Below are positions 123 to 63,023 of a DNA stretch of 64,000 bases, piece after piece (the first letter of the stretch is position 1; every line of letters begins with the position of its first letter). The stretch is taken from assembly GCF_035582795.1 (NCBI RefSeq), contig NC_134368.1:372001-436000 (forward strand). The letters are read 5' to 3'. A program made the translations under genes and the position numbers. This stretch comes from Mycteria americana (taxonomy: Eukaryota; Chordata; Aves; Ciconiiformes; Ciconiidae). The notes beneath the pieces are model-generated. The model was not told the origin of the DNA. It ran no database searches and saw only the letters and a program-made list of their open reading frames with translations.

Positions 123-422
123 ACCACAGCTCGTAGTAGTAGGTGCAGCAGCCGGTCTCCCCGCAGCAGTGCCCGGTCTCGCACACGTAGGGCTGGTTGT
201 TCACCCCCGGGCAGTACTCCCGGGCCTGCGGGCACAGCCGCGCCGTCACCGCGGCCCGGGACGGGGGCTGCCGCCCCGGCCCCGGCCCCAGGCCCCGGCC
301 CGGCGGAGGGGGGGGCCCGCGTCCCCGCCCCGGCGCCCCGGCCCCGGCCGTACCTGCTGGTGCTGCCGGCCCAGCAGCGCGGCCCAGGCCCCCTCGGCGC
401 CGCCGCTCCCGGGCCGCTCCAT
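123..422 (-). CDS. WBP1: WBP1 (WW domain-binding protein 1), 5' two exons only
   Basis: Two coding exons are visible. Exon 1 (422 to 354) begins [18 protein letters not shown] and ends at a GTACGG donor. Exon 2 (225 to 123) encodes the signature [17 protein letters not shown] followed by [13 protein letters not shown] and ends at GTGAGT. This cysteine-rich stretch is the lumenal/extracellular part just before the membrane segment of WBP1/WBP1L proteins. The transmembrane helix and PPxY motifs, which bind WW-domain proteins such as YAP and NEDD4-family ligases, lie beyond the left edge. Phases agree (69 + 103 nt, leaving one base that completes the second W). The short N-terminus resembles WBP1 more than WBP1L, and the neighbour INO80B upstream on the same strand matches the human INO80B-WBP1 order. 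The gene is incomplete because it runs off the window. Confidence 0.9.
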
Positions 423-1095
423 GGCGCTGCCTACAGCCCGCCGCGGCCCCGCGCCGGCTCCGCCCGCTCGGCCGCCCCGGCCCCGGCCCCCGCCGCCCGC
501 AGCAGCAGCCGCTGCCCCGCCGCCGCCGCCGCCGCCGCCATCCCGGCCGCCCGGGCCGCCGCCGCCGCCCGGGCCGCAGCCTCCGCCGCCGCCATCACGC
601 CCGGGCCGAAGCTCCCGCCCCCCTGCCGCCGCCGCCGCCCAATCCGCCGCCGCCTCGCCGCCGCCCGCCAATCGGCGCCGCCGCCGCCGCCCTGCCGCCG
701 CCAATCGGGCGCCGTCTGCCCGCGCCTCACGCCCAACAACAGAGACAAAGGGACCGAGCCCCGCCCCCGCCGGGATTGGCGGCCGCCGCCACCAACCGGA
801 GGCGGAGCCCCGCCCTCCCGGCCGTGACTGACGGGGGCGCCCGCCAACGGCGGCCTCGCCCCGCGCCCGGCGGGCGGGCGCAGCCGCCCCTGGCCGGCCG
901 GGACCCGCCCCCGGGGCGGGCGTTCGGGAGAGCCTGGCCAACGCGCGGCGCAGGAACGGCGTGGAGCGTAATTGACGCAGAGACCAACCAACCAGCGCCG
1001 CCGCTCTCTGCCGGGCAGGGCCCCAGCCAATGGACGCTGCCGTAGGGCGCTTCCCGGTGGCCCGCCCCCGGGATGGCCGGGCCGGGCCGGGCTGG
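423..1095 (-). promoter_or_regulatory. CpG-island promoter of WBP1 with several CCAAT boxes
   Basis: Very GC-rich, CpG-dense DNA lies just upstream of the WBP1 start codon. CCAAT boxes, in either orientation, occur at 639-643, 668-672, 701-705, 775-779 and 1027-1031, which is a typical NF-Y-type TATA-less promoter layout. There is no TATA box near the likely start. The island ends at a G-rich tandem repeat that separates it from the INO80B 3' end. Confidence 0.6.
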
Positions 1096-1104
1096 GCTGT
1101 ACCA

Positions 1105-1492
1105 TAACACACCGGGGGGGCGGGGGGAGCGGGCTGTGCCACAACGCTCCCGTTGGGGGGGGGGGGGCAGACTGTCCCATAGCGCTCCCGGGGAGGTGGG
1201 GGGGCAGACTGTCCCATAGTGCGCCGGGGGGGGGGGGGGGGGGGGGGGCAGATTGTCCCATAGTGCTTCGGGGGGGGGGGGGGAGCAGACTGTCCCATAG
1301 CGCTCCGGGGGGGACGGGCAGACTGTCCCATAGCGCTCCCGGGGAGGGGGGGGCAGACTGTCCCATAGTGCTCGGGGGGGGCCAGACTGTCCCATAGCGT
1401 TCCGGGGGGGTGGGGGGGGCAGACTGTCCCATAGCGCTCCGGGGGGGGGGGGGGGGCAGACTGTCCCATAGCGCTCCGGGGGGGGGGGGGGG
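1105..1492. repeat. G-rich minisatellite between WBP1 and INO80B
   Basis: About ten imperfect copies of a roughly 30-45 bp unit each contain the core CAGACTGTCCCATAGCGCTC followed by a G run of variable length (up to about 21). Most length variation is in the G runs. The array lies between the polyadenylation site of INO80B and the WBP1 promoter, so any INO80B-WBP1 read-through transcript would cross it. Confidence 0.9.
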
Positions 1493-1524
1493 CTGTCCCC
1501 CCAGTCCCGGCGGACCCACACACG

Positions 1525-59960: not shown

Positions 59961-62189
59961 AAAGGTGAAATATGGTGATGTTTTCTCCAATGTAACCTGC
60001 CAGGTTCTGGCAGTGAGTTGCTGGAGGCTTCCGAAGCCGGAGGTGGTACTTCTGTCTGTGGTTAAAAGCACTTGATGGATTTTCTACAAGGGAAAAATTT
60101 GGACTTAATATTTATTAGAGAGGAACCAAGAGACTCCTAGTCTCGGGAGCCCCAACACGTGCACTGTCCTTGTAGGGGGATGAGGGAAAGTTGACAGAAG
60201 GGGTATTTTAGTCTAGGGATTTTTTTGACCCACAACCGTTGGATTTGTCTGCAGTGTGAACGGGAGACCCCCGGTGCTCCCAAACCGTCTTCACTGCCGG
60301 GGCTGCAGCAGTGACGCCTCCCACCCCTCCTTCGTTTCGGTTATGGGTCAGCGCAGGGGGAGTACCGCGATCCTCCTCCCAAAGCGCTCGGCTTTGTTCG
60401 TGTTACGGTCGGTAGAGAAAGACGGAGTGACCTGGGCTGGGACAAACTGCCTGCTTCCGACCGGCCAACACGTCACCGCCTGGTCTTTCCAGCTCTCGTT
60501 GGTGTTGCGTTGCATTCCTCTCTTCTGGTGATCGCTGTGGTTTGGCCTGCCCTTCTCCGGGCTAGAGGGCTTTGTGAAGAGCTTTGGGAACCTTTGCCTG
60601 GCAGGTTGCGCAGATGCAAAAAATATTTATAATGCGTGGGAAGGCTGGTGCTGAGAGGCTGGAGATCGGGTTCCTCCTGCTGCGCTGGCTCAGCCGCACG
60701 GGCGCAGGGCTGGCCGAGCTGGTGCTGGTCTCGCTTTTTCATAATTTCATGGTGTTCGACTAGTTTTGGTTGTATTTGACTTGGGTTTTGTTCAAGGCGG
60801 GTTTTGGCATCCAATGCCCTTGATCTCTCCTAGAGCTGACAGAGTTGAGGGGAACGGGAAGATACTCTTGCCTTTTTGTCACTTTCTCAGAGGCTTTTGG
60901 GTTGGATTTCTGTACGTGTAACTGTTTCCTTTAAAACAGCATCGAGGAGGGGAAAAATGACTTCAGCTCAGACATCCACGTCTCTGCAGAAGACTGCTTC
61001 GGAAGTGACGGACAGGTTTTAGCTTTCCCTTTGTGCTGGCCGTCTGGAGTGACGGGGAGTGCGCTTGTTGACTGCAGTGTGCTTATCTAATGGGTAATTC
61101 AACCTGTGCTTTGCATGAGAAATATAATTGTCCTTTGACAAAAACCCCGTAGCTTTTCCGAGCGGTCTCGCGGAGCTCCCGGAGCAGCGGCAGGGTTTTC
61201 CCGTCCGGCAGGGAGCGCCTCTCCCGCTTTGCCCGGCGGGTGCGGTTATTCTCCCCTTTGCTCGCCCTGGGCGGCTTGGAGCTCTCTGGTGATCAGCGAG
61301 CGCCGGGGGTTGAGTTGCTCTGGTTGAGTTCTTGGTTGTTCCTGCGACTGAGAAAGGCCTAGTTTCTAGTGACGTTGTTTGTTGTTCGTCCCCGGGTGCA
61401 CGTCTTGCGGTTCGTTCCCTGGAATGCAGTTGCTGTCTCCTTGAAGGCCGCCTACTTCGTTCTGTAAGACGTCCTGGTCTTCCTCTGTCTGAAGGTGCCA
61501 CCCCCTGTCCAGTGCCGTGCTCTGCTTTTTTGGTGTCTATCTGCGGTTTCAAGCCTTTCTGACTTACAGTTCCTAAAGCAAAATTTCAGCGCGGGTACCG
61601 GCGTTAAGGTAGCTGATGTGAAGCTTGCATTTCTTGTTTGCCTTTTCTGTGAATACTTAGGAGTCATCCGCAGCCGGGCAGGAGATAAGGGACCAGAGGA
61701 TAGGTTCATTAATACAAATATTTTGAGAAATTCAGCCCCCGTATTGACCTATCAAGAACTTCCCTAGCAGGTTCCTCTTCACCCTTTTAAAAGCTTCCTG
61801 ACGACGCTGGTTTTTCCCTTCAGGTGGTTCATTGCCTCCTCTGTGGTCACTGCAGTCGGATGCTAAAATAGGGTGCAAACAGTCATAAAAATCCATGGTG
61901 CGGCCCCTCTTTTGGGGACGGCCTGGGGGACACGGCTGGGCGCGGGGTCCCGGGACGGTGGTGGGTGCTGGTGTCTCGCCGCAGCACGAGGCGGCTGGGC
62001 ACGCTGGCTTGCCAAAGCCCCTCCGTTAGCCCCGCTTGCCGTTTCACAGGCGGCAATTAACGCCGCAGACAGCTCTGAGAAGAGGGGCTGATGACTTTAA
62101 TTAGACATCTATTCAGATCAACCAGGGAAAGAACAATTATTGATTTTAACAAATGCCCCACGATTAACCGTTTGGTCTCCGTGCCTCCC

Positions 62190-62720
62190 ATCTGCCTGCG
62201 CCGCGCGCTGCGGCTGCGTGGGCACCCTTACCTGGCGGTGCCGGACGGGGCCGCGGGGCGCTGGGGAGACAGCCGGCGTCACCGCCTCGTTCTTCCTCAA
62301 ACTTTGCCATGGAGCGGTGCGGTGCCAGGGGAGATGGGAAGAGCCAGGTATGGCTGATGGGGGAACCCCCGGCGCTGGGCGAGGGGGGACGGGAGGGAGC
62401 GTGGGGGGCACGCCGAGCGGAGGCACGCCGAGCGAGTGCTGCTGCGGTGCTGTCCAGGGGCGTCTTGGTCGGCTCCGGGCAGGAGGAAATTGGGGTGGTC
62501 CCTGCCCAGCACCCGGCGGCGGGTGCTGCCCGCAGGGTGGGACAGGCAGGAGGAGGCTTTGTCCTTCCCGGTGCCCGGGTGCGGGTGGGCGAGCGGCGGC
62601 CGCGCCGGCGGCCGTGCCAGCGGCTGCGCCCGGGCCTCGCCGAGCCCGGGCCGGTTGCCTTGCCTCTCCTCCTGCGGCTCCAGCAGGAGCCGGGTAGCGT
62701 TAGGACCCAGCGAGCTGGCA
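62190..62720 (+). promoter_or_regulatory. GC-rich island just upstream of the DCTN1 start exon
   Basis: In otherwise AT-rich DNA this 0.5 kb is CpG-dense (for example GGCGGCCGCGCCGGCGGCCG near 62,600) and ends about 270 bp before the DCTN1 start codon. It could be the proximal DCTN1 promoter, in which case the island at 49.6 kb is a distal promoter or belongs to another transcript. Confidence 0.5.
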
Positions 62721-62990
62721 GCGCTGGTGACAAGTCTGGAGCAGCACTAGCGCAGAGTAGTCTCCATCAGCTGGGCTGGATTTTTGTATATCCCTGTGCT
62801 AAAGAATCCTCTGCCAGAAAAGGGCTTTCTCCCCTTTCTGTGCGACCCAGCAGAGCCTCGCCGGGGGCACACGGGGATGGTTAGATCGGCTGAAACGTGA
62901 AAAACCTCTGCTGAATTACTGCTGCCATGAACTGAGAGCATTATCTGAAAATAATAAATCTTTAAAATAGAGAGAAAAGCCAGCGGCAGC

Positions 62991-63023
62991 ATGGCCCAGA
63001 GCAAGAGACACACGTACAGCCGG
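62991..63023 (+). CDS. DCTN1: DCTN1 (dynactin p150Glued), first coding exon
   Basis: ATG at 62991 opens MAQSKRHTYSR, which matches the human p150Glued N-terminus MAQSKRHVYSR, and ends in phase 0 at a strong GTAAGT donor (63024). The exon is 11 codons as in mammals. The CAP-Gly domain and the long coiled coils would follow beyond the right edge. The Kozak context (GCAGCATGG) is good. A CAG acceptor at 62848-62850 after a pyrimidine tract could start this exon if a separate leader exon exists. p150Glued is the largest dynactin subunit and links dynein to microtubules and cargo. C2orf81 upstream on the same strand matches the human order. Confidence 0.93.

Follow-up and report, generated by a model that had tools for sequence, protein, structure and literature searches.

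An old vertebrate gene block in the wood stork and the probable loss of some of its members from the mammalian 2p13 counterpart

Introduction

If a chromosomal block carries more genes in a bird than in human, have genes been gained in the bird lineage or lost in the mammalian one? The question is raised by a stretch of 64,000 nucleotides of the wood stork, Mycteria americana (C4:372001-436000, in an assembly of 1.348 Gb in which contig C4 comprises 92,937,732 bases; the whole stretch is termed the window, and coordinates are window positions unless prefixed C4). It contains six genes of a block resembling human 2p13, i.e. WBP1, INO80B, RTKN, WDR54, C2orf81 and exon 1 of DCTN1, together with four extra genes: a drebrin-like and a RHOBTB gene between RTKN and WDR54, and a short-chain dehydrogenase/reductase (SDR) and a leucine-rich repeat (LRR) gene between C2orf81 and DCTN1. 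This arrangement had been proposed in an earlier note on the sequence and is borne out by the exon models, as are the complete frames and consistent splice phases claimed for the four extra genes (intact frames, GT-AG introns and matching phases throughout). The names WBP1, INO80B, RTKN, WDR54 and C2orf81 were assigned by similarity, and the human gene order and strands serve as general background to the comparison. The four genes were considered real and more than chance because a curlew protein shares 98% identity with the RHOBTB product (across the 669 amino acids searched) and a Mycteria americana protein of 640 amino acids includes the whole LRR product at 100% identity.

The earlier note had left undecided whether the extra genes are ancestral or were gained as pairs. 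According to the present analysis, the stork locus very probably keeps an old vertebrate gene block whose mammalian 2p13 counterpart lost members. For three of them, namely the RHOBTB gene (RHOBTB4 in the following), the drebrin-like and the LRR gene, ancestral origin followed by mammalian loss has good support on the basis of their relatives and, for the first two, of the zebrafish gene order; for these three the gain as pairs is contradicted.

Results and Discussion

RHOBTB4 and the drebrin-like gene

RHOBTB4 (23719..28997, plus strand; nine exons, 680 amino acids; based on models, relatives, Pfam and tree) encodes a Ras/Rho-type GTPase domain (Pfam Ras, residues 16-207) followed by BTB in three stretches, which is the architecture of a Rho-like GTPase with BTB domains. 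Three close RHOBTB loci were found in the genome: the window gene and those at C6:34.78-34.80 Mb and C23:5.19 Mb, which we take to be RHOBTB1 and RHOBTB2 by similarity. The C6 and C23 proteins were stitched from pieces (the C23 stitch is incomplete, with gaps and one misaligned stretch) and are approximately 66% identical to the window protein. Among the best 120 of 1122 relatives, teleost entries annotated as "rho related BTB domain containing 4" reach 74-75% identity (one further such entry 90% over 45% of the query), and other ray-finned entries, several of them named RHOBTB1, 74-77%. The window gene groups with relatives from turtles, squamates, amphibians and ray-finned fish, and not one mammal is present among the 117 species-assigned entries of these 120; since a mammalian orthologue should outscore the teleosts, this absence counts for mammalian loss. 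In a midpoint-rooted tree, with RHOBTB1 and RHOBTB2 taken from the stork genome only, 15 fish, amphibian and sauropsid sequences including the window gene form one clade as opposed to the C6 and C23 genes (support 100/99). Judged from the identity and tree of the fish entries bearing the name RHOBTB4, the window gene is the orthologue of fish rhobtb4 (in zebrafish on chromosome 5, synonym rhobtb2a); many of its bird counterparts carry the name RHOBTB2-like. Humans possess three RhoBTB genes. Four are reported for Alligator sinensis (PMC11477308). By its domains, the protein would be a Cul3 adaptor and an atypical Rho protein.

The drebrin-like gene (13788..20167, minus strand; 14 exons, 732 amino acids; based on the full model, relatives, Pfam and tree) begins with an exon 1.9 kb upstream of exon 2 that was located via a split tryptophan codon. 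Its product combines an ADF-H domain (PF00241) with a charged helical region, as is characteristic of the drebrin/DBNL family, and matches in both parts the solved chains of drebrin (9tg8, 5y1z) and drebrin-like protein (1x67). The ADF-H domain is 46-54% identical to that of seven ray-finned relatives and 52% to that of Latimeria, compared with 41% for human DBN1 and 35% for human DBNL. In the list of relatives of the protein, an Erpetoichthys entry (54% identity) bears the name si:dkey-40c11.2, which is also that of the zebrafish gene placed between rhobtb4 and RTKN. Relatives grouping with the window gene were found in turtles, squamates, amphibians, ray-finned fish and coelacanth, with no mammal among the 116 species-assigned entries of the best 120 of 390. 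In the corresponding tree, the window gene, other tetrapods, Latimeria and ray-finned fish stand apart from human DBN1 and DBNL (support 99/98). The window gene is regarded as the counterpart of zebrafish si:dkey-40c11.2 from the name of the Erpetoichthys relative and from the shared position.

The C-terminal SH3 domain expected of a DBNL was not detected: the search for an SH3 exon after the gene, covering 12300-15600, gave no SH3-like pattern except one unrelated WW-type string, and the gene was for this reason not filed as DBNL. In the best 120 of 390 relatives, Pfam lists SH3 for most fish counterparts (27 of 32 species-assigned ray-finned entries) and for all three caecilian entries, in contrast to the sauropsid entries, the three salamander entries and Latimeria, for none of which it is listed; from this scattered distribution, SH3 would repeatedly have disappeared or been overlooked by annotation. 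An SH3 pattern scan of the relatives was set aside, as it conflicts with Pfam in several entries (caecilian entries P0196 and P0197 lack the pattern; one lizard and one axolotl entry have it). The stork protein is predicted from its domains to bind the side of F-actin while lacking the SH3 domain that most of its counterparts in fish carry.

The LRR and SDR genes

The LRR gene (45407..47246, minus strand; three exons, 539 amino acids; based on model and relatives) encodes a BC-box-like N-terminus and an FBXL/RAD7-like LRR solenoid. At E <= 0.001, 98 relatives from rays to birds were obtained, covering turtles, squamates, amphibians, ray-finned fish, coelacanth, two rays and a shark, and 0 mammals were present among the 78 that are species-assigned. 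Its status as an ancestral gene of jawed vertebrates, mammals being absent from the species-assigned relatives, is well supported. The name si:ch211-214j8.12, which is that of an uncharacterised fish LRR protein and was not encountered in the literature searched, is attached to three entries from teleosts and one from a shark (29-44% identity); one goose entry and one godwit entry go by FBXL6-like. The N-terminus fits the BC-box consensus LxxxCLxx(hydrophobic): Leu-10, Cys-14 and Leu-15 are invariant in all 25 aligned sequences, chosen from the 98, and the pattern occurs within the first 140 residues in 83 of the 98 relatives and is missing from 15. Possibly the protein is a ubiquitin-ligase receptor that has so far escaped characterisation; it is predicted to act as a substrate receptor that contacts Elongin C via its N-terminal BC-box-like helix. 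Residues 5-139, including this helix, match yeast Rad7 (Rad7-Elc1, PDB 5zb2) collinearly; only this N-terminal part does so, and both FBXL2 and FBXL17 outscore Rad7 by sequence and by fold. That the gene is the vertebrate counterpart of Rad7, encoding an Elongin C-bound substrate receptor that ranges from sharks to birds and disappeared in mammals, seems doubtful to us; if true, mammals would have dropped a ubiquitin-ligase branch kept by most vertebrates.

The SDR gene (41872..45034, plus strand; six exons, 325 amino acids with an N-terminal hydrophobic segment; based on model, Pfam and in-genome relatives) belongs to Pfam adh_short and displays the motifs TGANSGIG, NNAG and YNSTK. Its best in-genome relative, on C3, is 46% identical over approximately 210 residues, with shorter matches of 34-59% on C5, C15, C8 and others; those on C3, C5 and C15 are presumably RDH14-, RDH12- and DHRS13-like. 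Motifs and closest relatives place the gene in the RDH11-14/DHRS13 group, in which it constitutes a separate gene and, given the low identity of the best match, no recent copy. It is an old member of this group; the ancestral reading of position covers the other three genes only. Duplicates of rdh14 are reported to have been retained since the two rounds of whole-genome duplication (2R; PMC8073704). The enzyme would probably be a membrane-anchored NADP(H) retinal/aldehyde reductase.

Gene order and linkage in other vertebrates

In Table 1 of PMC9210284, an interval of zebrafish chromosome 5 shows on four consecutive lines wdr54 (+), rhobtb4 (+), si:dkey-40c11.2 (+) and RTKN (-). The stork order RTKN (+), drebrin-like gene (-), RHOBTB4 (+), WDR54 (-) is the zebrafish order with RHOBTB4 flipped: rhobtb4 lies in the same gap going from wdr54 to RTKN, in opposite orientation relative to its neighbours. 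The table was taken as positional because rufy3, grsf1 and mob1ba, which are known neighbours, stand on consecutive lines as well. Neither dctn1 nor ino80b occurs in the text of PMC9210284, and no SDR or LRR gene could be identified close to wdr54 among the table lines examined, so that zebrafish is silent on the gap between C2orf81 and DCTN1.

Linkage could be followed more widely. When contigs were matched by exact size, 48 were common to at least two of the relative lists of RHOBTB4, the drebrin-like gene and the LRR gene, and eight to all three; Struthio, Lacerta, Rhineura, Lissotriton and Pseudorasbora are among the linked entries; of the two RHOBTB4 entries from Lonchura striata, one maps to a different contig. 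This shows that the three genes share one chromosome in several clades, in terms of linkage and not of adjacency. Orthologues located elsewhere in all other sauropsids, or present at the human locus, would have spoken against the interpretation offered in the earlier note; neither appeared, testable entries being nearly always on one contig with Caretta discordant. The family trees that it had suggested were built for RHOBTB and drebrin, and both group the window genes with fish.

Several points weigh against the proposed retention in the stork and loss in mammals. Direct comparison of gene order is confined to zebrafish, for which the table of PMC9210284 gives strands without positions, so that positional order had to be inferred, and which says nothing about the SDR and LRR genes. 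RHOBTB4 was inverted relative to its neighbours in either the zebrafish or the stork lineage. The Caretta RHOBTB4 and drebrin-like entries lie on different contigs, possibly of two assemblies, and the contig assigned to an entry is generally the longest of its cluster and not surely that of the named species. That mammals lack the genes was concluded from word-based searches, in which 7990, 7987 and 7996 candidates were scored, and for RHOBTB4 and the drebrin-like gene from best-120 lists. With respect to the trees, that of RHOBTB contains neither an outgroup nor fish RHOBTB1/2, the DBN1/DBNL side of the drebrin tree consists of two long human sequences, and the ADF-H domain of Latimeria is 48% identical to human DBNL, nearly its 52% to the window protein.

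Alternative explanations

The four genes might instead have been acquired by birds or sauropsids, as duplicate pairs that entered two gaps, and their geometry (drebrin-like gene and RHOBTB4 head-to-head, SDR and LRR genes tail-to-tail) would fit segmental insertions. Such a history appears quite improbable in view of the fish and amphibian relatives of RHOBTB4, the drebrin-like and the LRR gene, the zebrafish table (PMC9210284), where the counterparts of RHOBTB4 and the drebrin-like gene likewise stand between wdr54 and RTKN, and gene trees of RHOBTB and drebrin that broadly track species order; on these grounds a recent gain was rejected for the three genes. For the SDR gene alone, whose relatives were sought only in the stork genome, a sauropsid gain is conceivable, although its in-genome matches do not suggest a recent copy.

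Database names, which often read "drebrin-like" and "RHOBTB2-like", could be taken to mean that DBN1/DBNL and RHOBTB2 were merely relocated here by rearrangement. We consider this highly improbable, as two other RHOBTB genes reside elsewhere in the stork genome (C6, C23) and the window ADF-H domain is closer to its ray-finned counterparts than to either human paralogue. An assembly error, i.e. foreign or misjoined sequence, might be suspected from the sharp base-composition step at 49700..50500, where the guanine-plus-cytosine (GC) content of 65-82% on the left changes to 54-58% on the right (2-kb windows). However, the RTKN-WDR54 gap is not affected by this step, which is situated past the LRR gene and before exon 1 of DCTN1; the window contains no N bases, and RHOBTB4, the drebrin-like and the LRR gene are linked on contigs of many other assemblies, which makes such an artefact scarcely credible.

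Relation to the Lbx/Tlx paralogons

LBX1 is located on human chromosome 10, RHOBTB1 on 10q21 and DBN1 on 5q35. Four Lbx/Tlx paralogons originating from 2R were traced in 2008, with LBX2/TLX2 on human chromosome 2 and others on chromosomes 5 and 8; the chromosome 2 locus was derived from the NKX3.2 cluster of chromosome 4, and DCTN1 and TTC31 adjoin LBX2 in human (PMC2446394). RHOBTB2 belongs to a chromosome 8 block (PMC3890633). The stork block corresponds to the LBX2/TLX2 locus of human, which includes PCGF1, TTC31 and DCTN1. PDCD4, RTKN, rhotekin, RHOBTB and drebrin have no occurrence in PMC2446394. Inferred from this paralogon, RHOBTB4 and the drebrin-like gene are most simply regarded as 2R ohnologues of RHOBTB1/2 and DBN1/DBNL, that is, as the chromosome 2 members that would have been lost in mammals; the trees were computed without invertebrate outgroup, so that they do not date the duplication to 2R, which also weighs against this view.

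Neighbouring genes and base composition

To the left of the window, the block is extended by PCGF1, LBX2, TTC31, CCDC142, a PDCD4-like gene, MOGS and WBP1, in this order (names presumed from similarity). The PDCD4-like gene, at C4:363,027-367,023 (loci L027 and L028) between CCDC142 and MOGS, encodes a product matching PDCD4 structures (E 4e-142) and is not known from the human 2p13 block. The 5' part of WBP1 forms a coding segment at 127..219 (minus strand) that continues outside the window with further coding sequence at C4:371115-371994 (minus strand). Ab initio models placed INO80B at 1737..3568 (minus strand, five coding exons), RTKN (rhotekin) at 6400..12239 (plus strand, 12 coding exons) and a partial WDR54 at 30995..35291 (minus strand). 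The first well-supported coding exons of C2orf81 (37959..38558, plus strand) were obtained ab initio and by tblastn with a human C2orf81 probe (E 2e-29). Coding exon 1 of DCTN1 (62991..63023, plus strand) reads MAQSKRHTYSR, then gtaagt; no further DCTN1 coding exon was found within the window, and the CAP-Gly exon follows at C4:449.2 kb, approximately 13 kb beyond its end. Gene models predicted ab initio between 47 and 64 kb were discarded as meaningless. At the composition step, GC falls from approximately 75%, a level extending at least 110 kb leftward, to approximately 55%; a tandem short unit (CTGTCGGGGGGGCAGTGCTGGGGGACCCC...) is present in several copies at 49,900-50,210.

Significance

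Differential loss of 2R duplicates is a well-known kind of event. In the literature searched, which included few subscription journals, no title or beginning of an abstract describes this locus, the gene set or its loss in mammals, and in PMC12954441 neither "chromosome 4" nor any of five gene names looked for is present. Human-centred naming makes it easy to overlook genes that mammals lack but that birds, reptiles, amphibians and fish have kept intact; those of the present block are hidden behind names such as "RHOBTB2-like", "drebrin-like" or "uncharacterized". Fixing their ancestry turns a seeming bird novelty into a mammalian loss and adds candidate markers to the Lbx2/Tlx2 paralogon. Furthermore, the LRR gene provides an uncharacterised, deeply conserved protein that is testable in zebrafish, frog or chicken.

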